Positions 9,619 to 24,472 of a stretch of 41,353 nt of DNA are shown here, in pieces. Numbering within the stretch: the stretch's first letter is position 1; each line of letters opens with the position of its first letter. A model generated the notes under the pieces. It saw nothing but the letters and a program-made list of their open reading frames with translations. It was not told the DNA's origin and made no database searches. The DNA comes from Bacteroidota bacterium (lineage in GTDB: Bacteria > Bacteroidota > Rhodothermia > Rhodothermales > JAHQVL01): NCBI GenBank assembly GCA_039111535.1, contig JBCCIM010000031.1:1-41353 (forward strand). Direction: 5' to 3'. The position numbers were made by a program, and so were the translations under genes.

Positions 9619-9623
9619 AAGAA

Positions 9624-9641
9624 CTCACCAAATGCTTGCAG
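9624..9641 (-). promoter_or_regulatory. Ribosome-binding site and conserved leader of the giant gene starting at 9618
   Basis: Read on the minus strand, the leader is CTGCAAGCATTTGGTGAG, five bases before the ATG. GGTGAG is the likely Shine-Dalgarno element. Almost the same leader (with CACG inserted) precedes the giant paralogue at 34546, which supports both start choices. Confidence 0.55.
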
Positions 9642-9886
9642 AATGCTGATTCAGGCAGATTTGCGGGAGCACTTTTACCTGTTTCAGCCAGAGAGATTGG
9701 GGGATCGACATAAGGAAGCAAATTGGCCGAGTTTTTTTATAATCCGCACGCCATGGGGGGGCTTCAAATTTGGAGATGAAAAGGCAATTGTAGGTGTGTA
9801 ATGGCGGCTGGTCGCGTCAGCCATTTGTCAGGGGGAGATTTGCGCCAAAGCACCCCGCTCGGGTACACCTTTTGTTTGCGCCAAAC
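9642..9886. other. Intergenic upstream region of the giant gene at 9618
   Basis: This is the main part of a 330-base gap between two minus-strand genes. It should hold the promoter of the giant gene at 9618. I see a short stem (AATGGC/GCCATT near 9802-9828) and an AT-rich stretch near 9735, but no convincing promoter on the minus strand and no coding sequence. Confidence 0.5.
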
Positions 9887-9920
9887 GAAAAAAGGGCACG
9901 GTATTTAGCCGCGCCCTTTC
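9887..9920 (-). terminator. Rho-independent terminator of the beta-helix gene ending at 9949
   Basis: An 11-base-pair stem (9891-9901 with 9909-9919, one G-T pair) encloses a 7-base loop. On the minus strand it is followed by a run of T residues. It sits about 30 bases past the stop of the beta-helix gene ending at 9949, the classic intrinsic-terminator geometry. Confidence 0.85.
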
Positions 9921-9948
9921 GGATTTCCTCCTGTTTGACACCCACCAT

Positions 9949-12057
9949 CTATTTGGTTAGCAGGAGGTTGCGTGTGTCGACAAAATGTTCGCCGGCAACG
10001 CGCAAAAGGTAGCTCCCGGAAGCGAGGCCGGCAGCGTTAAAAGTGAAGCTGTGGGTAGCCTGGGCAGCAAGCGGTCCATCGTGGATCAAGGCAACCGTTC
10101 GACCCAATAGATCGTGTACGGTGACGCGAACGGACTGGTGCTGCTCAACCTGTAGCGTAAAGTTGGTTTGCGGGTTAAACGGGTTCGGATACGCTGGAGA
10201 AAGCGCGAAGCCATATTTTAACAACTCGCTTGATTCGGCTCCTTCATCTTCGTTCGACACCAGCGATGGCGGCGCTCCAAGGGGTTGGGAAGTAGCACTA
10301 AATTCGCTGGTATTGCCAAAGGGATCTGTTGCGGTAAGCACCAGCACATCACGTACATCCCATATTAAGCCGTCAGCCGACACCTCAAACCGCTCTGATC
10401 GACCAGGTACCACGTATGTGTGCGTCCCCAGGTATGTCTTGCCTTCGCCACTGCTCGCATCATCAGCAAGATACATGTCTACCGTCAGTGGGAAAGTAAC
10501 ATAGGCGTTGCTGGCATCAATGCTATATTCGACACCAAGCACATGCTGTGTCTCATCATAGCCAGCAACGAGAATGTCCGGATAATTCTGATTGAAATTG
10601 GGACCTTCATCAGCATCATCTAAATCATTCATCGTCACACCATCGACATTCAAATCGATACCGATGGCGCCATTGTTATACATGCGATTTCCGCGCAAAG
10701 ACGTATTCCGTGTCCCCGGAGCCGATTCAATGGCAATACCACTGCCCCCGTTAAACGCAATAGTATTGGTAAATTGCTGCGTCGTAGATATGGTATCAAC
10801 TGCGCTATATCCAATCGTAGTATCGAATACAGTTTCTTCAAGCAAAACACCATGCCCATCATTGCCGAGATTGGCGCCGTTCCGATTCGTGCCTATATAG
10901 TTACCTTGCACAACACTTAGCGCCGTATTGTGCAGCACAATACCATTACCTCGAATATTGCCTACCACATTCCCTTGATTGGCTGCCTTACCGCCCACTA
11001 CTACGTCTTCTGCGTTTGTTATTTCAATACCAATGTTAACATTGGCCGGCAAAGGAACACCAAGATCATCGCCGGCAGCGTTGGTGCCTATGTAATTTCG
11101 CTGGACAGTTATACCTTCACAATTGGATATCCGTAGAAATGTACGTTGAAACCCAATGGTATTATCAACAATAGTGTAATGGTCTCCATATATGGATATC
11201 CCCAAATCATCACTAGTCCCCAACTTTGCGCCACTGGCATTGGTGCCGATATAGTTATTGCTGACAATCCCTCCCTCACCAGCCAAAGAAAGTGTTCTAA
11301 GCACACTTCCTCCAATTACATTACCCTGCTCAGGCTGCGGACCGCCAATGATGGTGTTTTTGCCTGAATCAATTATCCCAGAGGCATTGGTTATGGGATT
11401 ACCATCCATATCAACACCAATCCGATTTGCCTGTATAACCGTGTTACTTGCGTCTGGAGAAACAGATACTTGTGTGCTGTTGTCAGCGATTACGTTGTTC
11501 CGCAAGATATTACCTGACCCATCCAATACCCTTAGACCAATAGCATTCAGAAACTCACCTGCAGGGACTATGCCGATGATGTTTTGCTCGATCAAATTGG
11601 CATCGCTATGAATGACAATTGCAGTTGATACCCTGCCTATGATAAAACCCTTGATGACACTGCCCGCTGACCCGAGCACTAATTCAAAACCATTCCAGTT
11701 TGTATCCTCCACTTCGATTCGTATGCCGGCACCCGGCCCGCTTAATCCATCAAGTATCACGCGGTCCTTAATTTCGGGTAGCGCAAGATTTGTAGTTCGA
11801 CCAACACGGATCACAACAGGCGCCGTCAAGCTAGTAGAAAAGTGGATTTCATCCGGGCCGGCAAACGCATTGCCCGTAGCATTGGCTTCTTCTATAGCTG
11901 CGCGCAGCGTGCAGGATTCAAGCATGGTGAGGCACTGCCCATCACCGGGATTTGCATCAGTGTGGTCGAGTACAGAATTGACGGTAAAAATTTTTTGGCC
12001 GTTAGCCGGCAGCAGGCTAACCAAAAGCCAGCCGCATAGTGCAAGAAGTGTTCTCAT
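9949..12057 (-). CDS. Secreted right-handed beta-helix protein with CSLREA-type N-terminus and T9SS tail
   Basis: This 702-residue protein has a signal peptide (cleavage after PANG, about residue 20). A CSLREA-type N-terminal segment follows, with ESCTLRAAIEEANATG and a second Cys shortly before. The body (about 90-480) is a right-handed parallel beta-helix built on repeats such as NYIGTNASGAKLGTSDDLGI, with GNVIG and IGG turns. After a conserved region around PFGNTSEFSA (about 580) comes a T9SS tail with YPNPFNPQTNF (about 620-702). Beta-helices of this kind occur in surface adhesins and polysaccharide-active proteins, but I see no pectate-lyase-type catalytic site. The gene is divergent from the ECF sigma gene at 12336, so a shared regulatory region is possible. 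Two paralogues follow at 15860 and 18202. Confidence 0.9.
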   Translation of the reverse strand: MRTLLALCGWLLVSLLPANGQKIFTVNSVLDHTDANPGDGQCLTMLESCTLRAAIEEANATGNAFAGPDEIHFSTSLTAPVVIRVGRTTNLALPEIKDRVILDGLSGPGAGIRIEVEDTNWNGFELVLGSAGSVIKGFIIGRVSTAIVIHSDANLIEQNIIGIVPAGEFLNAIGLRVLDGSGNILRNNVIADNSTQVSVSPDASNTVIQANRIGVDMDGNPITNASGIIDSGKNTIIGGPQPEQGNVIGGSVLRTLSLAGEGGIVSNNYIGTNASGAKLGTSDDLGISIYGDHYTIVDNTIGFQRTFLRISNCEGITVQRNYIGTNAAGDDLGVPLPANVNIGIEITNAEDVVVGGKAANQGNVVGNIRGNGIVLHNTALSVVQGNYIGTNRNGANLGNDGHGVLLEETVFDTTIGYSAVDTISTTQQFTNTIAFNGGSGIAIESAPGTRNTSLRGNRMYNNGAIGIDLNVDGVTMNDLDDADEGPNFNQNYPDILVAGYDETQHVLGVEYSIDASNAYVTFPLTVDMYLADDASSGEGKTYLGTHTYVVPGRSERFEVSADGLIWDVRDVLVLTATDPFGNTSEFSATSQPLGAPPSLVSNEDEGAESSELLKYGFALSPAYPNPFNPQTNFTLQVEQHQSVRVTVHDLLGRTVALIHDGPLAAQATHSFTFNAAGLASGSYLLRVAGEHFVDTRNLLLTK

Positions 12058-12164
12058 TGTATTTCTTCGATTGATGGAAACTGATCATGGTGGGCGTTTG
12101 CTTACAGATTTCTGCCCATCTGATCACTCTAGCGTCGCCAATCTCGAAATGTGGACACGGGGGG

Positions 12165-12229
12165 TAGGTTGAAGGTTGAAGGTTGAAGGAATGTAAATTT
12201 CGACATTCGTTATTCCTTGCTCGATATTC
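12165..12229. repeat. Dispersed intergenic repeat, copy A
   Basis: Three tandem GGTTGAA units run into TTCGACATTCG and CGATATTC. About 65 bases closely match the copy at 21468-21540, differing by a few substitutions. This copy lies between the divergent beta-helix and sigma genes, upstream of sigma. No transposase or coding potential was found. Confidence 0.85.
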
Positions 12230-12335
12230 CCAAGAAGGCTGCCCCTGGTATTCAACCCTCGGCAAGATCTTTGTCGAATAATTCCTTTAATTAAGGAAGA
12301 GACCCATCCCCGCATTCACTCACTGGGTATCAGTC

Positions 12336-12926
12336 ATGCAAGAAACAGGCACAGTCACGGTATGGCTTCGCCGGCTCAGCGATGGCGACGCGTCAGCCCT
12401 CGATGAATTGGTCCCGCTCATCTACGACGAACTGCATCGGGTAGCCCAGCACCGCATCAACCGCGAACGCAAAGGACACACATTCGGTGCAACAGCGTTG
12501 GTGAACGAGGTTTATTTGCGGCTGGTGAACGGCAAACAACTTGACATGGCAGACCGCAATGACTTCATGGCCGTTGCGAGCCAAACCATGCGTAATATCC
12601 TTGTGGATTATGCGCGCAAAAAGAACCGTGTTAAGCGAGGCGGTGGCCAGGCCAGCGTACCGCTGGAAAAAGTAGAAGCTTTCCTCACGCAGGAGGAATC
12701 AGAAGAAGTATTGCTACTAGACGCGGTACTGACGCGGCTCATGGACATCAACGAACGGGCCGGCCAGGTGGTACAACACAGGTTCTTTGGTGGCCTTACG
12801 CTCGACGAAACGGCTGAAGTATTGGGGCTTTCCAAGCGATCAGTCCAGCGATCCTGGGTTGTAGCTAAGGCCTGGTTGCGCAAAGAAATGGCCGGCGAAA
12901 GCGACCGCTTGATAGAGCCAGAGTAA
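12336..12926 (+). CDS. ECF-type RNA polymerase sigma factor, ECF43-like
   Basis: A 196-residue sigma-70 family protein of the kind often annotated as ECF-type sigma factor in kinase-linked loci. Region 2 spans about 20-95 (GATALVNEVYLRL, then FMAVASQTMRNILVDYAR). Region 4 has a helix-turn-helix at about 152-182 (LTLDETAEVLGLSKRSVQRS). Where typical ECF sigmas carry acidic residues (DAED-like) in region 2.2, this protein has HTFGAT with T49 and T53. In the Vibrio EcfP/PknT pair, such a sigma is activated by phosphorylation of a region 2.2 threonine. A TPR-bearing Ser/Thr kinase follows at 13132, so phosphorylation control is likely but inferred. No anti-sigma factor gene is adjacent. The start is supported by alignment with the second sigma (MQEPGTIT); no strong Shine-Dalgarno is visible. 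Confidence 0.92.
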   Translation: MQETGTVTVWLRRLSDGDASALDELVPLIYDELHRVAQHRINRERKGHTFGATALVNEVYLRLVNGKQLDMADRNDFMAVASQTMRNILVDYARKKNRVKRGGGQASVPLEKVEAFLTQEESEEVLLLDAVLTRLMDINERAGQVVQHRFFGGLTLDETAEVLGLSKRSVQRSWVVAKAWLRKEMAGESDRLIEPE

Positions 12927-12931
12927 CAATC

Positions 12932-12951
12932 GAAAACACAGATGTGTTTTC
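12932..12951. other. Small perfect hairpin after the sigma gene
   Basis: GAAAACAC pairs with GTGTTTTC around a 4-base loop, six bases past the sigma stop. A degenerate piece of the GGTTGAA repeat follows (12953-12989). There is no T-run after the stem, so it is not a standard terminator. It could limit readthrough into the kinase at 13132. Confidence 0.4.
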
Positions 12952-13131
12952 AGTTGAAAGTTGCAGGTTTAAGGTTGAAGGTTTTGGAGCCATGTCACTA
13001 GAATTTACTTGTCGTAGCTTACGAACAACCCTGACTAAGAACTTGTCAACGTAAGCTTGCTTACTGGTGTCCACTCTTGCGCCAGAGCGACGCTAAGTAA
13101 AGCACACCCACAGTATTTTTGGAGCTAACCC

Positions 13132-15798
13132 ATGGACGCTAACCGCTGGCAACAACTCGAAAACCTTTTTATTTCAGCACTCACACTGGAAGGCAAGGAA
13201 CAAGCAGAATTCCTCGACAAGGCCTGCGGTGATGATGCTGCCCTGCGACACGAACTCGAATCGATGTTGCATGTCGACCAGGACAGCGTTGCTTTTGCCC
13301 TGGAAAACAAGTTGTTAAACGAAGAAGCGCCGGCGCAGTCACGGGCTGCAGACCTGATCGGCTCTCGTATTGGGCCTTACCGTCTCGAGGAATTGCTCGG
13401 AGAAGGGGGCATGGGTGAAGTATACCTGGCACAACGCAACGATGGGCAGTACGACCAAAAAGTAGCGCTCAAATTAGTGCGACCAGGTTACCGAAGTGCG
13501 GACCTATTCCGCAGGTTTCGCATGGAGCGCCAGGTACTGGCGCGTTTATCGCATCCCAATATCACCCAATTGCTGGATGGTGGCATCGATAACGATGGCC
13601 GGCCTTATCTGGTGATGCAATATGTGGAAGGGCTCCCCATCACCAAGTTTTGTGATAAACACGCGCTCTCCATCGAGGAACGTCTGGGTTTATTCCGCAC
13701 CGTCTGTGCGGCAGTGCAGCATGCACACATCAATCTGGTTGTACATCGCGACATCAAGCCCTCCAATATTCTCGTCACCGAGGGCGGCGTCGTAAAACTA
13801 CTCGATTTTGGTATTGCAAAGCTGCTTGCGCCAGATTTGCAAACGTCTGTTGCGCTCACGCAAAGCAGGGTTCGCCTGATGACACCGGAATATGCTGCAC
13901 CCGAGCAAGTCCAGGGTGCAAACATCACGACGGCCACCGATGTCTATGCATTGGGTGTACTACTATATGAAATGTTGACAGGCCGGCGACCTTACCAGTT
14001 AGACAAAAAAATCCTATCGGAAGTCGAGCGCATCATATGCGAAGAAACACCTCTCCGGCCAAGTACATCGCTTACCGAAGCAACCCACACCAAGGCTTCC
14101 ATCGAAGCAATTAGTAGCGCACGCCGGACAGGTGCTGCGCGGCTCCGCAGAACCCTCCAGGGTGATCTGGACAATATCGTACTCATGGCCCTCCGCAAAG
14201 AACCAACACGGCGGTATGCTTCAGCAGAACAGTTTGCACAAGATATCCAACGCTACCTGGAAGGCCTTCCTGTCTCCGCACAAAAAGATCGCTTAAGCTA
14301 CCGGTTCAAAAAGTTTGTTTTTCGTCATCAAACTGTCGTAGCAGTAGCCAGCGCAGCATTTCTGTTGGCCATCGGTTTTGGCATCGCGATGTCAATCCAG
14401 GCGCGAAACTTGGCCATTCAACGGGACCTTGCGCAATCTGAAGCAACCAAAGCACAGCAGGTCTCGGCCTTCCTCGAAAACATGTTTGAAGCTTCCGATC
14501 CACTCGCCGTAAATACCGAGCGACGCGACACCTTGCGGGTTCGTGCACTACTTGATATCGGCGTCAAGAACTTGCACGAAGAGCTCGCGGATCAACCCCA
14601 GGTCAAAGCTTCGCTCCTTCATGTGCTGGGCAATGTCTACAACGGCCTTGGTGATCCAGTTGCAGCCCTGCCTTTGCTAGATGAGGCCCTGTCAATACGA
14701 ACAACGTTGTATTCTGGTGATCATGCAGAAATTGCAGAAAGCATGGCTGGGAAATCTAACATCCTACGCCAACAGGGAAAGTTCAACGAAGCGGAGCCGC
14801 TAATCCTGGATGCGCTGGCAATGAACACCCGGCTCGCGGGTGCAGAGCATATTTCAATTGCAGACGACTTACAAGATTTAGGGGTACTCCGACAGCGCCA
14901 GGGCCGTTATGTTGAGGCCGATTCATTATTCCGCGCCTCGTACCAGCTTCGGAGTACGTTGCTAGGACCAGCACACTGGGATGTTGCATCTGACCTGAAC
15001 AACATCGCAACCGTGCAATACCTGAGCGCTAACTTCGAAACTGCCGACTCACTTTTTCGGGAGGTGATTGCGATCAGGAGCCAGCTGCGAGACTTCACCC
15101 ACCCTGACATTGTGTCCGCGCAAGGCAATCTGGCGACTACCCTGAGACGACAAGGAAAGCTCGATGAAGCCATTGCTTTGAGTCAATCCGTACTCGAAAA
15201 CCTGAGAAACCGCCTTGGACCGGTCCATCCCATGATTGCCGGAAGCCTCAACAATCTTGGGCAATTGTTCAAGACACAGCAAAAGTATGCAGAGGCTGAA
15301 ACCCATTACAAAGCAAGCCTTGCGATGTACCAACAAGTGCATGGCAGTTCGCACCCCAACATCGCGCTGATCCTGCATAATCTGGGCGCACTCTACAAGG
15401 CCATGCGTGCGTATGATGAGGGCTTTGCCCATTACGAGCAAGCACTGCAAATGCGCAGGGCCTTATTTGGCAATACACATCCTGCTGTTGCCGCTACACT
15501 CAATAATCTGGGTATCCTGCTGAAATCTAAAAGGGACTACGCCGGTGCTGAACCCTACCTACGCGAAGCGCTGGCTGTAAACAGAAAATTGCTCGGCGCC
15601 GATCATCCCCGTATTGGGATCACAATGGATAGCCTTGGCGACTTACTCATCAAAACAGGTAAGTATGCGGAAGCAGACTCAATGCTGCACGGCGCAAAAA
15701 AAATACTCCTCGCACAGTTTGGTCCAGACAACAGGATTGTCAAGAACAATCAGAAATCGCTGGAATTGCTGGCGGAGAAACAGCAAAACAACCAGTAG
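13132..15798 (+). CDS. Membrane Ser/Thr protein kinase with C-terminal TPR region (cassette 1)
   Basis: An 888-residue protein. Residues 1-75 form a helical N-terminal segment shared with the kinase at 21692. The Hanks-type kinase domain (about 80-380) has a glycine loop GEGGMGEVYLA, VALK lysine K114, HRD aspartate D207 in HRDIKPSN, DFG aspartate D225 and the APE motif at 256-258, so it looks catalytically complete. One membrane segment (about 401-421) follows. The rest holds kinesin-light-chain-like TPR repeats (HPxIAxxLNNLG...YAEAE...A). With one membrane span the TPR region should be extracytoplasmic and the kinase cytoplasmic. GGAG eight bases upstream supports the start. It lies 205 bases after the ECF sigma gene, which is its likely substrate by analogy with EcfP/PknT. 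The ligand of the TPR region is unknown. Confidence 0.93.
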   Translation: MDANRWQQLENLFISALTLEGKEQAEFLDKACGDDAALRHELESMLHVDQDSVAFALENKLLNEEAPAQSRAADLIGSRIGPYRLEELLGEGGMGEVYLAQRNDGQYDQKVALKLVRPGYRSADLFRRFRMERQVLARLSHPNITQLLDGGIDNDGRPYLVMQYVEGLPITKFCDKHALSIEERLGLFRTVCAAVQHAHINLVVHRDIKPSNILVTEGGVVKLLDFGIAKLLAPDLQTSVALTQSRVRLMTPEYAAPEQVQGANITTATDVYALGVLLYEMLTGRRPYQLDKKILSEVERIICEETPLRPSTSLTEATHTKASIEAISSARRTGAARLRRTLQGDLDNIVLMALRKEPTRRYASAEQFAQDIQRYLEGLPVSAQKDRLSYRFKKFVFRHQTVVAVASAAFLLAIGFGIAMSIQARNLAIQRDLAQSEATKAQQVSAFLENMFEASDPLAVNTERRDTLRVRALLDIGVKNLHEELADQPQVKASLLHVLGNVYNGLGDPVAALPLLDEALSIRTTLYSGDHAEIAESMAGKSNILRQQGKFNEAEPLILDALAMNTRLAGAEHISIADDLQDLGVLRQRQGRYVEADSLFRASYQLRSTLLGPAHWDVASDLNNIATVQYLSANFETADSLFREVIAIRSQLRDFTHPDIVSAQGNLATTLRRQGKLDEAIALSQSVLENLRNRLGPVHPMIAGSLNNLGQLFKTQQKYAEAETHYKASLAMYQQVHGSSHPNIALILHNLGALYKAMRAYDEGFAHYEQALQMRRALFGNTHPAVAATLNNLGILLKSKRDYAGAEPYLREALAVNRKLLGADHPRIGITMDSLGDLLIKTGKYAEADSMLHGAKKILLAQFGPDNRIVKNNQKSLELLAEKQQNNQ

Positions 15799-15806
15799 AC
15801 TAAACA

Positions 15807-15844
15807 AAAAAGCTACACAAAATAGCTGGCACAGATTGCTTTTT
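15807..15844. terminator. Weak possible bidirectional terminator between convergent genes
   Basis: AAAAAGC and GCTTTTT (7 bp) flank a 24-base loop that itself contains AGCT repeats. It fills the 61-base gap between the convergent kinase (ends 15798) and beta-helix gene (ends 15860). The stem is short and the loop long, so the call is tentative. Confidence 0.3.
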
Positions 15845-15859
15845 GAGATACAAACCGTA

Positions 15860-18130
15860 CTACTTCACCAGCTGCAATTGCCGGGTCTCAACAAAGCGAT
15901 CTCCCTGTACCCGGAGCAGGTAACTGCCTGAGGCGAGGCCGGCAGCGTTAAAGGTGAAAGTATGCACCCTTGCGCCTTCCAACATGCCGTCGTGTAAGGT
16001 GGCAACCCGCCGGCCCAGCATATCGTGGACAGCAATCTGCACAGGACCATCCTCGCGCAAAAGCAATTCGAAACTGGTGCTCGGGTTAAACGGGTTGGGA
16101 AAAGCCGGCTTTAACTCATGGGTATCCATCTGCTCAGTTAGTACCAGCGATGGCTCCAGGGCAGCCAGATTGGAAACGCCAACGGCCCCGCCAAATTCAC
16201 TTGTATTGCCCAGAGAGTCCGTTGCTGTTGCGGTAAACATGACGTCTTCCAAATGAACGCCCAATCCCGTGGTGTCCACAGTAAGCACAGCCAGATCCTG
16301 GGGATTGATATATGATGTACTGGCTATGTGTTGTACACCTTGACTGGCGAATGCAGACTGATCTTCTATATAAAAATCCAGCGTGAGCGGATACGCAGCG
16401 TACATGGTGTCAGCCGTGTGGATAAAAGTAAATTCGAGTTGGCCCGTTGCACTGTTGAACAAGACTTCTCCGATATCAGGAGAATTGAGGAGCGTATTTG
16501 CGCCAGTATCATCGTCAAACTCGTCATTGGGGGTATTGCCATCTAACTTAAGGTCAATGCCAATGCCATCATTTTCGCCTGTTGCATTGCCTCGAATGGT
16601 ATGCGGGTGACTACCCAATCCAATTACGCCAACGGCCGGCCCTTTGTTGAAGAAGATATAATTGGCTTTGCCCATTTTTGTGTGGTCAACAACCTCCCCC
16701 AAACCATATCCGATAACACTGTCGCCAAAACCACCATCCATTAAGATCCCGCCCAACGCGTTACCCAGCGCCTGATGTTCTGAGTTCGTGCCAATGTAAT
16801 TACCTTCGACACGGAAGTTCGTGTTACTTCCGGAGACATGAATTCCGTATGTACCATTGCTGCCAATCGTATTGACTGCGCCATAAAAATCACCGCCGAT
16901 TAAACTATCATCGATGTCATACATTCGAAGACCAGCTTTAAAATTGCCAATGGGTGTCCCTGATTTGCTCACGCCAATGTAGTTGCCACGAATGAGCAGC
17001 GCCCGGCTCCAACCTATGTTGATGCCTTCCTCATTAAATCCAATGACATTTCCGGCTACCGGACTACCGATCACGTAGCGGTCCGCGTTCACCTTAATTC
17101 CTATGCCAGCGTTTCCAATATTTGCACCTGATGCGTTCGTACCGATATAATTATTTTCTACCCGTCCTGCTACCCCCGCAAGCAAAATACCTGTGTCATT
17201 GTTACCAATCACATTACCGTCAGTGTTGAATACCCCTCCTATTTCATTCGCGCTCCCGTAATCAGCTATGCCTATGATACCACTCCCCAGATCATCTCCT
17301 TCTTCGTTCACGCCGACATAATTTGCAGTAATCCGGTTGAGTTCTCCATCAACTGTAATACCTGTTACCTGATTAAAGCCCACAGTATTTCCTGAGACGA
17401 TATTTGACCTTCCATAAACATCAATGCCCCCATTGTTACCCAAAAAATCGCCTTCAGCATTGGTACCTACATAGTTATTTTCAACCTGGGTAAACAGTGC
17501 ATAAATAGACAAATAAACCCCAACTTCGTTGAACCCTATCACATTGGGATCATCTGACGAACCGATTTCTACGGAAAAACTGGACCGTTCAAGCTCTATG
17601 CCGGCAAACCCATTTCCTCTGTCATTCCCGTCCTGATCAGTACCCAGATAGTTGCCTATGATAACCTGGTCTGAGCCCCCCTCTACCAGAATAGCGCTCT
17701 CTGAAAAATTTCCGATCGTTAATCCTTTTATAACGCTTTTCCTTGATCCCGTTGCCAATACAATACCGTCGTCCTGGGCGGCTAATGTACCATCGATATA
17801 AACGCCCCCTTCTGCGGTTGTGCCATCGATAATGACATGATCGTCGATATCAGGCAGCACAAGCGCCGGCCCAGATAAATTTATGCGGTTTGCAAAGGGT
17901 CCAGGTGAAAAATGAATTTCGTCAGGCTGCGAATTGCTCACATTAACCGTCGCATTTGATTCCTCGATGGCCGCCCGGAACGTGCAGACACCAATCCAGG
18001 TGGCACAAATCCCATCACCCGGATTGATATCAGGGCCATGACCTGAGGTAGTAACCACAAATATGTTTTGTGCATGCGCGGAGATCGTACAAAAAAAGCA
18101 GAGCAAGAGGTATAGGGAATAGCGTTTCAT
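15860..18130 (-). CDS. Secreted right-handed beta-helix protein with CSLREA-type N-terminus and T9SS tail (second copy)
   Basis: This 756-residue protein has a signal peptide (cleavage after SAHA, about residue 20). The CSLREA-type segment reads VCTFRAAIEESNA. The beta-helix (about 100-500) is built from a super-repeat of about 56-57 residues that alternates an NYIGTNASGANIGN element with a GNVIGFN element. A conserved DSLGNTSEFGG region precedes the T9SS tail with FPNPFNPSTSFEL (about 668-756). It is most similar to the beta-helix genes at 9949 and 18202, especially in the signal peptide, CSLREA segment and tail (AAGLASGSYLLRV is shared with the 9949 gene). It lies 71 bases downstream of the 18202 gene on the same strand and converges with the kinase at 13132. 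A structural or adhesive surface role is inferred; no enzyme active site was recognised. Confidence 0.9.
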   Translation of the reverse strand: MKRYSLYLLLCFFCTISAHAQNIFVVTTSGHGPDINPGDGICATWIGVCTFRAAIEESNATVNVSNSQPDEIHFSPGPFANRINLSGPALVLPDIDDHVIIDGTTAEGGVYIDGTLAAQDDGIVLATGSRKSVIKGLTIGNFSESAILVEGGSDQVIIGNYLGTDQDGNDRGNGFAGIELERSSFSVEIGSSDDPNVIGFNEVGVYLSIYALFTQVENNYVGTNAEGDFLGNNGGIDVYGRSNIVSGNTVGFNQVTGITVDGELNRITANYVGVNEEGDDLGSGIIGIADYGSANEIGGVFNTDGNVIGNNDTGILLAGVAGRVENNYIGTNASGANIGNAGIGIKVNADRYVIGSPVAGNVIGFNEEGINIGWSRALLIRGNYIGVSKSGTPIGNFKAGLRMYDIDDSLIGGDFYGAVNTIGSNGTYGIHVSGSNTNFRVEGNYIGTNSEHQALGNALGGILMDGGFGDSVIGYGLGEVVDHTKMGKANYIFFNKGPAVGVIGLGSHPHTIRGNATGENDGIGIDLKLDGNTPNDEFDDDTGANTLLNSPDIGEVLFNSATGQLEFTFIHTADTMYAAYPLTLDFYIEDQSAFASQGVQHIASTSYINPQDLAVLTVDTTGLGVHLEDVMFTATATDSLGNTSEFGGAVGVSNLAALEPSLVLTEQMDTHELKPAFPNPFNPSTSFELLLREDGPVQIAVHDMLGRRVATLHDGMLEGARVHTFTFNAAGLASGSYLLRVQGDRFVETRQLQLVK

Positions 18131-18152
18131 CGTGTGATTGCCTCAAAGGATA

Positions 18153-18178
18153 AGCCGGCCCACGCGTAAGGGCCGGCT
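18153..18178 (-). terminator. GC-rich hairpin between the two tandem beta-helix genes
   Basis: A perfect 9-base-pair stem AGCCGGCCC/GGGCCGGCT encloses an 8-base loop, 24 bases past the stop of the gene ending at 18202 and just upstream of the start at 18130. It contains two GCCGGC palindromes. There is no long T-run, so it may be a partial terminator or a leader hairpin of the downstream gene. Confidence 0.5.
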
Positions 18179-18201
18179 ATTGAATTGATATGGGGAAATG
18201 A

Positions 18202-20688
18202 TTACTTCAGCAGCGTGAGCATGCGGACCGCTCGAAATGCATCTGCCTGCACGTGGAGCAGGTACGTTCCGCTAGACAAGCCGGCAGCGTCAAAAGTGAA
18301 CGTATGCCGGACGCCTGCTGAAAGCGGCGCGTCGTGTAACAGGGCAACTTCGCGACCAAGCAAATCAAACACGGCGATGCGAACGGGCGCTACATCGGCA
18401 ACTTCCAGCGAGAACGAAGTGGTGGGATTAAACGGATTCGGATAGGCGGGTGATAGCGCGTACGTTTGCGGCTGCGCCGCCTCGTCATCTTGCACAAACG
18501 TTGCCGCTGCAGCCCAACTCGAGACCGGCGCGGTGGCTTTGCTAAACTCGCTTGTATTGCCCAATGAATCCGTCGCCGTAGCAACAAATACATCGTCGAG
18601 TTTCAACGCCAACCCGGTGGTGTCTACGGCAAAGACAGCCGCTTCTCCGGGCACCTCATAGCTATGGCTACCGACATACTTCTTGCCCTGCGTATCTGCT
18701 GAACCATCGCCAAGGTACAAGTCGATGGTCAAGGGAAACACAGCCGCTGTGCTGGCTACATCCAACGTGTAGACAATTTCAAGCTGCTTTTGCGCCGCGT
18801 TGTAATTCAGCGATTGCCACTCGGGGTGATTGAGCAAGGTGTTGGGTCCATCGTCAGTATCTTCATTGTCATTGATCAAAAAACCCTCATTGAACAAGTC
18901 GATGCCCAACCCGAGGTTGTTGCCAATTACATTGCCCCGAATCGTGTTAGCGTGGCTGCGAAATTCAGAGGGTAAAGCAACACCACCGCCGCGGTTGTAC
19001 AGTATATGGTTGCCCCTTGCTTCAGCTTCAATAATAGGATCGTGGGGTGCATAGCCAATTATGGTATTGGATGACGCCAAACCCAGGGTGATGCCATATC
19101 CCGCATTACCCAGGTCCTCCCCCGCAGCATTGGTGCCGATATAGTTGCCTTCAATTATCATCCCTTCACATTCAGTCGATTCAATCCCGGCAGTTCCGTT
19201 AAACCCAATAACGTTGCCCTGACCAAATCCGCGACCACCAATTTGCTCCTCTTCACAATCCGACATATGCAATCCCACTTCAAGATTTCCCATGGGCAAC
19301 CCGTCCGCATTGGTCCCGATGAAATTGCTGCGTATCAGGTTGCGTTCACTGCTCCATACAGCAATTCCGGTCTTGTTAAAGCCAACAACATTACCTGACC
19401 CGGGCAAGCCAACAAGGTTGTTTTCGCCATCCGTTACCCAAATCCCAAAGCCGGTGTTGCCCGCGTTGGTCCAGATACGTGTCGTTCCAACAAAATTGTT
19501 TTCGATGATGTTGTTGTTCGGTACGGTCTCGCTTCCAAAAACCAACTCAATACCGTTCTCATTAAACCCAATGACATTGCCATCTTCAGGTAAATTCCCG
19601 CCTACCTGGTTACCGGAACTGCTTAACCGTATGCCCTCATTTCCGTTGCCAATATTTTCACCGCCGAAGCCAACGCCGACGTAGTTGGATTTAATGGTCG
19701 AAAATGGGCCTCCTACATCAATGCCAGCACCCTGACTAAACCCTATTACATTATGGGTGATCGTAGTTTCCTCGGCGAAATGAACAGAGATACCAGCAGG
19801 TGAGCCAATGCTGGTTGCACCGTTCCCCATGGGATCCCCCTGTGCGTTGGTGCCAATGTAATTGTGTTGAATTACCGTTGACCGGATCGCAACACCGCCA
19901 CTCCACAGCTGAATACCGTCCCCCACATTAAATCCAATAAAGTTGCCGGCATCAGGCTCTCCTATAACGTTCGAAAAACCGCGCGACACCGTAATGCCCT
20001 GCCGCTGATTGCCAAGTGGCCGGTATTCAACATCGGTACCGATGAAGTTGCCGGCGACAACATTGCGCGATGATGCAATGAAAACACCTGCGTCTCCGTT
20101 AAAGCCGATAACGTTGCCCGCATCTCGACCGCCTACAATATTCTCACCCCCATCCTCCGACAGATACAGTCCGGCGCCCCCATTTCCCAAATCATCACCC
20201 GCCGCATTTGTCCCCAGATAATTAACAAGAATGGTATTTTCCTCGCTTTCGACATAAATGCCGACTTCCGGGAAATTACCGATGGTCATGCCCTTGATGG
20301 TGCTACCATCCGAGCCCGCTGCCAGGGTAATGCCATTACCGGCGATGGACGCTCCATCCAAAAAAACAGATCCGGGCGCCGTGGTCCCATCAATCACGAG
20401 GGCATCCGTGATTGCCGGCAAAACGTTTACCGACATGGCAATTACAAAGGAAGAATCCAGCGTGGATGAAAAATGAATTTCATCGGGTCCATCCGGGCTA
20501 TTGGCAAGCGCATTGGCTTCCTGAATCGCAGCACGTAACGTACAGGGACCGAATAAACTGCGACAATCGCCGTCTCCCGGCAGTAAATCTGCATATCCTC
20601 TAGGACTACTGACGACAAAAACGTGCTGTGCGTATGCAGGTGATAAGACGAATAAACAGAGCAAAAGCGTTGCAAAAAGTGTTTTCAT
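18202..20688 (-). CDS. Secreted right-handed beta-helix protein with CSLREA-type N-terminus and T9SS tail (third copy)
   Basis: This 828-residue protein is the longest of the three beta-helix paralogues. Its signal peptide is MKTLFATLLLCLFVLSPAYA, and the mature chain starts QHVFVVSS. The CSLREA-type segment reads GPCTLRAAIQEANALAN. The beta-helix (about 100-560) carries the regular NYLGTNAAGDDLGN and GNVIGFN elements with a super-repeat of about 58 residues. A DSLGNTSEFSKA segment precedes the T9SS tail with YPNPFNPTTSFSL (about 740-828). It is divergent from the second ECF sigma gene at 20907, mirroring the arrangement at 12057/12336. The most likely role is a T9SS-exported surface protein; the ligand is unknown. 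Confidence 0.9.
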   Translation of the reverse strand: MKTLFATLLLCLFVLSPAYAQHVFVVSSPRGYADLLPGDGDCRSLFGPCTLRAAIQEANALANSPDGPDEIHFSSTLDSSFVIAMSVNVLPAITDALVIDGTTAPGSVFLDGASIAGNGITLAAGSDGSTIKGMTIGNFPEVGIYVESEENTILVNYLGTNAAGDDLGNGGAGLYLSEDGGENIVGGRDAGNVIGFNGDAGVFIASSRNVVAGNFIGTDVEYRPLGNQRQGITVSRGFSNVIGEPDAGNFIGFNVGDGIQLWSGGVAIRSTVIQHNYIGTNAQGDPMGNGATSIGSPAGISVHFAEETTITHNVIGFSQGAGIDVGGPFSTIKSNYVGVGFGGENIGNGNEGIRLSSSGNQVGGNLPEDGNVIGFNENGIELVFGSETVPNNNIIENNFVGTTRIWTNAGNTGFGIWVTDGENNLVGLPGSGNVVGFNKTGIAVWSSERNLIRSNFIGTNADGLPMGNLEVGLHMSDCEEEQIGGRGFGQGNVIGFNGTAGIESTECEGMIIEGNYIGTNAAGEDLGNAGYGITLGLASSNTIIGYAPHDPIIEAEARGNHILYNRGGGVALPSEFRSHANTIRGNVIGNNLGLGIDLFNEGFLINDNEDTDDGPNTLLNHPEWQSLNYNAAQKQLEIVYTLDVASTAAVFPLTIDLYLGDGSADTQGKKYVGSHSYEVPGEAAVFAVDTTGLALKLDDVFVATATDSLGNTSEFSKATAPVSSWAAAATFVQDDEAAQPQTYALSPAYPNPFNPTTSFSLEVADVAPVRIAVFDLLGREVALLHDAPLSAGVRHTFTFDAAGLSSGTYLLHVQADAFRAVRMLTLLK

Positions 20689-20906
20689 GACGTGTTCTCG
20701 CTTGAAGTGGGTGTTTCCGGCGGCACGAAGTGGGTCTCCTCCTTAAGCTCTAGCGACAGAAAAGACGGAACATGGCCAAACTATTTTGCACGCACCCAAT
20801 TTTTATGCTTTTTGCCGACCTGCGAGGATGGGTTAGGTAGCGATTACAAGTTAGAAAAGTCTTATTTTGTATGATTGTGGCCCCATCCACAGCTTGGCGC
20901 ACGGAT

Positions 20907-21482
20907 ATGCAAGAACCAGGAACGATCACACGCTGGCTACGCCAGCTCCAGGAAGGCGACACATCTGCCTTCGATGCGCTTATTCCACTGATGTATGAAG
21001 AACTCCATCTTATTGCACAGCAGCGACTCAAACGGGAACGTGCAAACCATACGCTGGGCGCAACGGCACTTGTGAACGAAGTCTACCTGAAGTTTGTCAA
21101 TCAGCAACAAATTACGCCGGCCGACCGCGGTGAATTCATGGCAGTTGCGAGCCAGTCTATGCGCAACATTCTCGTAGACTACGCAAGAACCAAAAAACGA
21201 CAGAAACGCGGCGGTGAACAGATGAAGGTATCGCTGGAAACCGTAGAGGCATTTCTTTCGGACAGAGAAGCTGACGAGGTACTCGTGCTCGACGGCGCAC
21301 TCGCCCGCCTCGCTGCCATCGACGAGCGCGCCGGCCAGGTTGTGCAGTACCGCTTCTTCGGCGGCCTCACGCTCGACGAAACGGCAGAAATTATGGGCAT
21401 CTCCAAACGCTCTGTCCAACGCTGCTGGAATACGGCAAAAGCCTGGTTAAGGAAAGAGGTTGTAGGGAAGGTTGAAGGTTGA
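20907..21482 (+). CDS. ECF-type RNA polymerase sigma factor, ECF43-like (second copy)
   Basis: A 191-residue paralogue of the sigma at 12336, matching along the whole length: MQEPGTITRWLRQL, then HTLGATALVNEVYLKF in region 2, and LTLDETAEIMGISKRSVQRC in region 4. It also lacks the acidic region 2.2 motif and has T53. An in-frame ATG at 20871 would add 12 residues (MIVAPSTAWRTD), but the first sigma has no such extension, so 20907 is preferred. The last residues (GKVEG, stop) are encoded inside a dispersed GGTTGAAGG repeat, so the native C-terminus was probably replaced by the repeat. It is followed 209 bases later by the kinase at 21692, and is divergent from the beta-helix gene at 20688. Confidence 0.9.
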   Translation: MQEPGTITRWLRQLQEGDTSAFDALIPLMYEELHLIAQQRLKRERANHTLGATALVNEVYLKFVNQQQITPADRGEFMAVASQSMRNILVDYARTKKRQKRGGEQMKVSLETVEAFLSDREADEVLVLDGALARLAAIDERAGQVVQYRFFGGLTLDETAEIMGISKRSVQRCWNTAKAWLRKEVVGKVEG

Positions 21483-21540
21483 AGGTTGAAGGAAAGCTAA
21501 ACTTCGACATTCGACATTCCTTGCCCGATATTCGATATTC
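21468..21540. repeat. Dispersed intergenic repeat, copy B, overlapping the sigma 3' end
   Basis: Three GGTTGAA units, then TTCGACATTCGACATTCC and two CGATATTC motifs. It matches copy A at 12165-12229 closely. It overlaps the last five codons and stop of the second sigma gene. Confidence 0.85.
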
Positions 21541-21560
21541 AAAGAATGTGCAGGCCTGGC

Positions 21561-21582: not shown

Positions 21583-21691
21583 TTAGACTTATCAAGAGCA
21601 GCATAACAGACTGGAGCAAATCAACATTCAGCAATCCCCTCTGTCCACATCCGTCATCAAATATCGCTAAACTAATAAAGCCCTCTGCAGG

Positions 21692-24472
21692 ATGGACACG
21701 CAACGCTGGAAAAAACTGGAAGCACTCTTTAATGCGGCACTTGAGCTGACGCATGTGGACAGGGCTGCATTTCTGACGGATGCCTGTGCAGATGACGAGG
21801 CGTTGCATAAAGAACTTGTCGCCATGTTAAAAGCCAACGAAGGCAGCATGGCCATGGCCCTCGAAGAACGGCTGCTAACAGAAGACGATAGCCCCGAAGC
21901 AATCGACCTTGTCGGCACACATATTGGGCATTACCGCCTGGAGAAACTCATCGGTGAGGGAGGCATGGGCGAGGTCTACCTCGCGCAACGAGATGATGCG
22001 CAGTATAAACAGCACGTGGCCCTCAAGCTTGTCAGGCCTGGCTATCGAAACAACCAGATTATGGCGCGCTTCCGCATGGAGCGGCAGGTACTGGCACGGC
22101 TCACCCATCCAAACATCACGCAGTTACTCGACGGAGGCATCGACAACAACGGCCGACCCTATCTCGTGATGCAATACGTGGAAGGCATCCCGATTACCCA
22201 GTATTGCGATGATCACGCGTTGTCCATCAATGAACGCCTTGCATTATTCACCACCGTCTGCAATGCTGTGCAGCACGCCCATCGCAACCTCATTGTACAC
22301 CGCGACCTCAAGCCATCCAATATTCTTGTCACAGGAGAAGGCGTCGTAAAACTGCTCGATTTTGGCATAGCCAAACTCCTCGATCCCGACTGGGAAATGT
22401 CTCTTGCCATCACGCAATCACAAATGCGGTTGATGACACCCGAATATGCAGCCCCAGAACAGGTAAAAGGCGAAGCCATCACAACGGCGACCGATGTGTA
22501 CGCGCTGGGGATTTTGTTATACGAAATTCTTGCCGGCCGACGCCCCTACCACCTCAAAAATCGCCGGCAATCAGAAATCGAACGGATCATCTGCGAAGTA
22601 GCACCCACACGACCAAGCACAGCACTTACCGTAGCCACAAAACAAGAAGACACTGCAGCAACGTATTCTCCTAAAGCGGTTAGCAAAGCACGCGGCATAG
22701 GGTTGAACAGGCTCAAAAAAATGCTCCGGGGTGATCTCGACAATATCGTACTCATGGCCATGCGCAAAGAGCCTGCGCGGCGATACAGTTCTGCAGAGCA
22801 ATTAACAGAAGACATCTCCCGGTTTTTGAAGGGACTGCCTGTTCGCGCGCAGAAAGACAAGACGCTGTACCGCATGCAAAAATTTGTGCGCCGGCACCGG
22901 GCTGCGGTACTCTTCACTACCTTCGCCATTACAACCCTGATAGCATTCAGTATTTTTGCAACCTACCAGGGTTCGCTGCTCCGCGTGGAACGCGACACAG
23001 CACAGGTTGAAAAGACCCGTGCTGAGAAAATGGTAGGCCTGCTTGTCAGCCTCTTTGAGACCGCTAATCCTAATGTTACCCCCGGTGGCGATACGCTCCG
23101 CGTGGGCACCTTTGTAGAGAAGGGGGCCAGGAAGGTCTTGCAAGAGGTAGAAGACGACCCTCAACTTAAAGCACAAATGACTTTCACGCTGGGCCAAATG
23201 TATGCGGCACAGGGACAATACCGCGAAGCACAGGGACTGCTGGAAGACGCCTATGAAATGCAACGCAAACTACGCGGCCCAGCAGACTCGGTGACAACGG
23301 GTTATCTGATGGCGTTGGCCACACAAACCTGGCGTTTGGGGCAGCGAGAAAAGGGCAAAGTCATGTTCGAAAAACTGCTCATCCACAACAAAGCAGTATT
23401 TGGAGAAACACATCCTCGCGTTGCCAAAAGCATGCAACTTCTTGCCTTGGCCACCAGCGACGTATTGGAAAAACAGGCGCTACTGGAATCTTCGCTACAG
23501 ATTAGGCAAGAAATTTTGCCGGCGAATGACATTGAAATTGCGGACGGCCTGAATGCCCTGGCTACGTTCCATTTATTGACCTCCAATTATAGCCTTGCAG
23601 AGGAGAATTATCGCGCCTCGCTGGATATCCTTGAGCAAATCCTCGACAAAAACCACCCCAACATCCTGGCCGTCATGGGCAATCTGGCTTCAAGCCTGAA
23701 TCAAATGGGTGATACCCCGCAAGCAATAACCATTCAAAAAGATGTGATCAGCAGGCTGCGGACGGTAAAACGCGACTCATCCGTACAAACAGCCAACGCC
23801 TGGAATAACCTGGCCGTGTATTACATTCACGAAGGCAAATTTGCAGATGCAAGGGACGCGCTACAATATGCCAACGGCTTGCAGACAGTTTTGCTGGGCC
23901 CCAAACATCATCGCGTATTATCTACAGCGCGCAACCTCGGCGTTGTATTATCCAAAATGGGCAATCACGAAGCTGCCAAAGCAATATTTCAAAATATCAA
24001 CCGGCAAATAACAACCAGGAATGATCAGTTAAACATCGAGACAGGCTATTACTTTGGACAGTACGCTAACATTCTGCGAGAAGCTGATGCATCACGGAGA
24101 GAAATCGAAGACTACCTGCAAAGGGCCCTCGCGGCTGCCGAACAAACACGCAATAACGATCCCGAAGCCAAGCATACAAAGATAGCAGATATCTACCTCT
24201 GGCAAGCGATGTATTTGCTGGAAAATCAGGCGTACGCAGCGGCTGCACCTTACACGGAAGACGCGCTTGCCATGCGCCTGGCGCTTCTACCAAAATCCCA
24301 TCCCCATATTGCCATCGCGCAGAGCCTGGATGGTATAACGCGATACCATCTCGATCAGAAAAAAGAAGCTGTTGCACTGCTTGAGGCCGGCAACAATGCG
24401 TTCCAGGCCCACTCACTTGTTGAACAACAATGGAAAGACGAGGCAAGCGCTATTTTAGCTGACAACTTGTGA
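21692..24472 (+). CDS. Membrane Ser/Thr protein kinase with C-terminal TPR region (cassette 2)
   Basis: This 926-residue paralogue of the kinase at 13132 has the same helical N-terminal segment (about 1-75). Its kinase domain (about 78-380) has GEGGMGEVYLA, VALK lysine K112, HRD aspartate D205, DFG aspartate D223 and TPEYAAPEQ, so it appears active. One membrane span lies at about 404-424. The C-terminal half is a TPR region, but the repeats are much more degenerate than in the first kinase. From residue 90 to 230 the two kinases are very similar by eye (roughly 80 %), whereas the TPR halves diverge strongly, which suggests different signals feeding a similar output. The start aligns with the first kinase (MDTQRWKKLE versus MDANRWQQLE). 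Its likely substrate is the sigma at 20907. Confidence 0.92.
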   Translation: MDTQRWKKLEALFNAALELTHVDRAAFLTDACADDEALHKELVAMLKANEGSMAMALEERLLTEDDSPEAIDLVGTHIGHYRLEKLIGEGGMGEVYLAQRDDAQYKQHVALKLVRPGYRNNQIMARFRMERQVLARLTHPNITQLLDGGIDNNGRPYLVMQYVEGIPITQYCDDHALSINERLALFTTVCNAVQHAHRNLIVHRDLKPSNILVTGEGVVKLLDFGIAKLLDPDWEMSLAITQSQMRLMTPEYAAPEQVKGEAITTATDVYALGILLYEILAGRRPYHLKNRRQSEIERIICEVAPTRPSTALTVATKQEDTAATYSPKAVSKARGIGLNRLKKMLRGDLDNIVLMAMRKEPARRYSSAEQLTEDISRFLKGLPVRAQKDKTLYRMQKFVRRHRAAVLFTTFAITTLIAFSIFATYQGSLLRVERDTAQVEKTRAEKMVGLLVSLFETANPNVTPGGDTLRVGTFVEKGARKVLQEVEDDPQLKAQMTFTLGQMYAAQGQYREAQGLLEDAYEMQRKLRGPADSVTTGYLMALATQTWRLGQREKGKVMFEKLLIHNKAVFGETHPRVAKSMQLLALATSDVLEKQALLESSLQIRQEILPANDIEIADGLNALATFHLLTSNYSLAEENYRASLDILEQILDKNHPNILAVMGNLASSLNQMGDTPQAITIQKDVISRLRTVKRDSSVQTANAWNNLAVYYIHEGKFADARDALQYANGLQTVLLGPKHHRVLSTARNLGVVLSKMGNHEAAKAIFQNINRQITTRNDQLNIETGYYFGQYANILREADASRREIEDYLQRALAAAEQTRNNDPEAKHTKIADIYLWQAMYLLENQAYAAAAPYTEDALAMRLALLPKSHPHIAIAQSLDGITRYHLDQKKEAVALLEAGNNAFQAHSLVEQQWKDEASAILADNL

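Follow-up and report, generated by a model that had tools for sequence, protein, structure and literature searches.

Sigma factor and kinase genes of the window

The window analyzed here, a stretch of 41,353 nucleotides of a Bacteroidota genome, contains two sigma factor genes, each followed by a protein kinase gene. Genes for secreted proteins are read in the opposite direction. The features considered are as follows.

9949..12057, minus strand: CSLREA protein with a T9SS tail, divergent from sigma 1 (head to head) and a candidate target (scores of TIGR04214 and TIGR04183 above cut-off; synteny conserved in relatives)
12149..12157, plus strand: 9-mer ATGTGGACA upstream of sigma 1 (common to loci L139 and L140, there also upstream of the sigma gene; reverse copy at 21642-21650, minus strand)
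12336..12926, plus strand: sigma 1, putative ECF43-type (TIGR02999 191 bits; PF07638 E 6e-48)
12486..12497, plus strand: GATA motif in region 2.2 of sigma 1, residues 51-54, with T53 at 12492-12494 (aligns with DAED and with QATE of EcfK, T51)
13132..15798, plus strand: kinase 1 (Pkinase E 5e-46; TPR families; best PDB kinase match PknS, 9EED)
15860..18130, minus strand: secreted protein with a T9SS-type tail (PNPF; tail by pattern alone), between the pairs, candidate target
18202..20688, minus strand: secreted protein with a T9SS tail, divergent from sigma 2 (head to head) and likewise a candidate target (TIGR04183 above cut-off; weak CSLREA, TIGR04214 below cut-off)
20871..21482, plus strand: sigma 2, putative ECF43-type (TIGR02999 189 bits; PF07638 E 9e-49)
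21057..21068, plus strand: GATA motif in region 2.2 of sigma 2, residues 63-66 from the first ATG or 51-54 from the second, with the Thr at 21063-21065
21692..24472, plus strand: kinase 2, layout as kinase 1 (Pkinase E 1e-46; TPRs; TM helix near 405)

Both sigma factors scored far above the TIGR02999 cut-off of 126 bits and were 68% identical to each other. The start of sigma 2 that is homologous to the start of sigma 1 is its second ATG at 20907, offset by 12 residues from the first ATG at 20871. EcfK, an ECF43 sigma factor of Xanthomonas citri (PMC13147305), also lies far above the cut-off (184 bits), which places it in one ECF subfamily with sigma 1 and sigma 2, at a distance of 28% sigma identity. 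To recover EcfK, we searched 198 genomes, all from the family to which a Lysobacteraceae locus belongs, with a DNA pattern encoding QATELVHE (I/V accepted as well as L); the recovered proteins carry T at 51 and TLTISLS at 104-110, that is, all five published EcfK phosphosites, and the identification rests on these sites. A PDB sequence search with sigma 1 as query returned zero matches. When a moderate model of sigma 1 (mean pLDDT 76) was used for a fold search, ECF sigma factors came out on top, but weakly (best E 0.004). No anti-sigma gene adjoins either sigma factor gene; the neighbors other than kinases encode secreted proteins. On the basis of the common TIGR02999 family, the motif, the threonine and the kinase pairing described below, sigma 1 and sigma 2 are probably new members of ECF43.

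The first-pass annotation had noted a kinase behind each sigma factor. Indeed, the kinase genes lie on the same strand, 205 bases downstream in pair 1 and 209 bases in pair 2, and both products have the full catalytic set of Gly loop, VALK, HRD, DFG and APE. Kinase 1 consists of an N-terminal extension, a Hanks kinase domain (approximately residues 80-365), a TM helix near 402-420, and C-terminal TPRs. Against the PDB, its residues 3-377, extension included, matched 9eed_A with an E-value of 2e-60, and the next bacterial kinases, StkP and PknB, followed far behind (6e-42 and weaker). The 9EED entry is PknS 1-364. EcfK is phosphorylated by PknS, in which an N-terminal segment of 83 residues is accompanied by a TM helix and by TPRs on the periplasmic side (PMC13147305). 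Like EcfK/PknS, the window pairs thus combine a TIGR02999 sigma factor bearing Thr at the phosphosite with a kinase that is extended at its N-terminus, has a single TM helix and carries TPRs in its C-terminal part.

Region 2.2 threonine in the window and among relatives

Region 2.2 reads HTFGATALVNEVYL in sigma 1, where the Thr is residue 53, and HTLGATALVNEVYL in sigma 2; the two window motifs are identical except for F/L at residue 50. In the alignment, GATA falls on the place of DAED and contains no acid in either protein. The genome has 10 weaker TIGR02999 matches that are conventional ECF sigma factors, with motifs such as EAED, ECED, RCED and EVDD opposite GATA; they keep D at the fourth place in 10/10 cases and have T at the third in 0/10. 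The acidic region 2.2 motif is therefore missing from both window proteins, as had been proposed. The accompanying statement that both carry the Thr at position 53 holds as it stands for sigma 1; for sigma 2 it holds only when translation is counted from the ATG at 20907, the residue being T65 from the first ATG.

In the alignment, T53 of sigma 1 stands exactly opposite T51 in the QATE motif of EcfK, a phosphorylated residue (PMC13147305). EcfP of Vibrio parahaemolyticus, also of group ECF43, has the motif STTA, whose second T is phosphorylated (PMC8999054). T53 falls at the place of this residue, a comparison that was made by the published motif only. The likeness to the EcfP site claimed by the first-pass annotation is thus supported and extends to EcfK. 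EcfK lacks the neighboring T49, which is conserved in 90 of 98 sigma factors, so that T53 is the residue in common.

In their own genome, the two window sigma factors belong to a set of 18 members above the TIGR02999 cut-off, most with an adjoining kinase, and T is third in the motif in 16 of the 18. The remaining two are natural exceptions to the Thr model: a paralog with SVNG beside a kinase (L212, 8884-9489, minus strand), and one with DTVA for which no kinase was found nearby (L211, 8970-9539, minus strand). In another paralogous locus of this genome (L208), the kinase gene (9411-11699, plus strand) is divergent from the sigma factor gene (8682-9317, minus strand) instead of downstream.

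Outside this genome, relatives were searched with only the sequence downstream of the motif, which avoids selection for T. The search yielded 80 loci from Rhodothermota, Balneolota, Acidobacteriota, Gemmatimonadota, Planctomycetota and others. Their third place was T in 66, S in 6, A in 4, N in 3 and R in 1. A same-order set, which includes the 18 own sigma factors and overlaps the outside set by a few sequences, had T in 73 and S in 1 of 78. Neither D nor E occurred in this column in the outside (n = 80) or the same-order (n = 78) set, and S was the commonest replacement (6/14 in the outside genomes). Such a pattern is expected if the charge on this residue has to be regulated and not permanent. 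As to whether an acid at motif place 1 or 4 might compensate for a lost T/S, one was present in 6/10 sigma factors that had lost T/S vs 24/88 of the others (Fisher’s exact test: p = 0.06, ignoring kinship). Since T is also reported for 88% of ECF43 (PMC13147305), and given these counts across genomes, the GATA-type Thr is a family hallmark and not peculiar to the window. As judged from the aligned sequences, it is a matter of homology and not of chance, but it is family-wide; the phospho-Thr idea has already been published for ECF43 and is not new here.

Proposed phosphorylation switch

We propose that each pair is an ECF43-type signaling unit in which the sigma factor is switched on by its kinase through a phosphate on T53, a reading to which our analysis gives a probability of roughly 0.77. 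On the model of EcfP, the sigma factor would be inactive as made, because the acids through which the beta-prime clamp of RNA polymerase is bound are missing from GATA. The membrane kinase would hold its kinase domain in the cytoplasm and, across one TM helix, a TPR sensor that is presumably extracytoplasmic. Upon activation, the adjacent kinase would phosphorylate T53, the phosphate supplying the missing charge, and the phosphorylated sigma factor could then bind polymerase and have its target genes transcribed, probably including those of the divergent T9SS-secreted proteins. What we infer here is the phosphorylation of T53, the kinase responsible for it, the inactivity of the sigma factor without phosphate, and the targets. 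Activation by phosphorylation had been suggested from the motif; it gains support at the sequence level from the match of T53 with T51 of EcfK, the common TIGR02999 family, and the closeness of kinase 1 to PknS.

The closest precedents are EcfP/PknT (Iyer et al. 2020, as cited in PMC8999054 and PMC13147305) and EcfK/PknS. EcfP/PknT resembles the window pairs in a sigma factor without the DAED acids, a Thr third in the motif, an adjacent kinase gene and no anti-sigma. It differs from them in having STTA instead of GATA and in responding to polymyxin. EcfK, unlike the window sigma factors, has an acid beside its Thr (QATE) and a linker phosphosite, and it controls a T6SS instead of T9SS cargo. 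Other kinase-linked ECF groups retain the DAED acids (PMC8999054).

Conservation alone is no proof of the switch, because T is kept equally well without an adjacent kinase. In the outside set, 54 T and 4 S were found among 64 kinase-linked sigma factors, and 7 T and 2 S among nine unlinked ones. The idea that T53 goes together with a neighboring kinase gene was therefore rejected. These counts would also fit a T53 that is conserved for structure, as a cap where the region 2.2 helix begins, while the kinase has some other target, such as a linker site or a different protein. In the model of sigma 1, whose confidence is low here, helix 52-65 has T53 at its beginning, and T49 is equally conserved though missing from EcfK. 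Nevertheless, we consider this explanation quite improbable, since the residue corresponds to a proven phosphosite in two relatives (PMC13147305, PMC8999054), and since D, a good helix cap, never substitutes for T. A different concern is which kinase acts. The genome encodes about 30 Hanks kinase domains beside its 18 such sigma factors, and the window motifs are alike apart from residue 50, so that T53 might be phosphorylated by similar kinases through cross-talk and not, or not only, by the neighboring one. This seems unlikely to us, because gene pairing is strongly conserved (54 of the 66 T-bearing outside sigma factors have a same-strand kinase gene no more than 1 kb away), and because EcfP and EcfK are partnered by their own neighboring kinases.

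It is also conceivable that phospho-activation is real but that Ser/Thr residues in the sigma2-sigma4 linker share the role of T53. EcfK is phosphorylated at T104, T106, S108 and S110 besides T51; either T51 or T106 alone suffices, and EcfK T51A is functional in vivo owing to the second, linker site (PMC13147305). T53 may therefore not be the sole switch. In the corresponding stretch, the counterparts of the EcfK linker sites are S107/P109 in sigma 1 and K119/S121 in sigma 2, in an alignment that is uncertain by two residues, so that S107 and S121 are candidates. However, neither window sigma factor has Ser/Thr at both candidate places, both have E opposite one EcfK site, and EcfP has a single site. 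We therefore hold sharing by the linker to be a tentative possibility, on the doubtful side. Returning to the switch at T53, with no E beside the Thr and the EcfK linker sites not clearly conserved, dependence on T53 should, as predicted from these sequences, be stricter in the window sigma factors than in EcfK. The family as a whole does not strictly need T/S at this place, because some kinase-linked sigma factors, including the SVNG paralog, lack it.

With 18 such sigma factors in one genome, most of them kinase-paired, the phospho-switch may be a main signaling route in Rhodothermota, and the same may hold for the relatives among acidobacteria, gemmatimonads and planctomycetes. Since their motifs are alike and have no fallback acid, the two window pairs would offer a clean test case for T53 dependence and kinase specificity.

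Secreted protein genes and intergenic elements next to the pairs

The connection of the pairs with T9SS cargo deserves further work. Both sigma factor genes are head to head with a gene for a T9SS-tailed protein, and the gene at 15860..18130 is the second of the genes that are read towards kinase 1. In the own genome, T9SS-type tails occurred in 5/14 divergent neighbors of the 18 sigma factors vs 8/132 other genes of the same loci (Fisher’s exact test: p = 0.003; post hoc). The window sigma factors belong to a subclade of nine loci from seven genera, plus one long-branched row, with a support of 94 in a quick, unfinished tree. Within it, a T9SS-tailed gene is divergent from the sigma factor gene in L142, L144 and L145, and lies two or three genes off in L140 and L141. 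CSLREA and beta-helix domains are also present in L144 and L145, paralogous loci from another family of the order. The neighbors could be assigned at all subclade loci but L143; the one at L139 is different. The conserved arrangement across genera suggests a dedicated surface-cargo regulon, and this link to cargo suggests the purpose of the route in this group. Our literature search found no paper joining CSLREA with a sigma factor. SigP/PorXY of Porphyromonas gingivalis likewise connects an ECF sigma factor with type IX secretion; however, SigP is under two-component control and it is the secretion machinery that it regulates, and it is not a kinase-paired ECF43 member beside cargo genes (PMC4800418).

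More broadly, T9SS-tailed secreted proteins, several with CSLREA/beta-helix domains, were seen head to head with sigma-kinase pairs or near them in several genera, at L140, L141, L142, L144, L145, L199, L203 and L207. In one relative, two tandem kinases stand behind one subclade sigma factor (L144, 3140-7932, minus strand).

In the promoter search, a bipartite promoter was rejected (the dyad search reached at most 4/7 loci vs 3 in shuffles), and CTCTWGCGNC was not above chance within the window. Only the 9-mer ATGTGGACA stood out. Four loci of the subclade have it, either close to the sigma factor gene or in the sigma-kinase gap, and no 9-mer reached four loci in 200 shuffles. It is possibly a promoter element or operator. 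Short intergenic repeats, with runs of GGTTGAAGG followed by TTCGACATTC / TCGATATTC, surround both pairs at about 12160-12240, 12950-12990 and 21483-21545.
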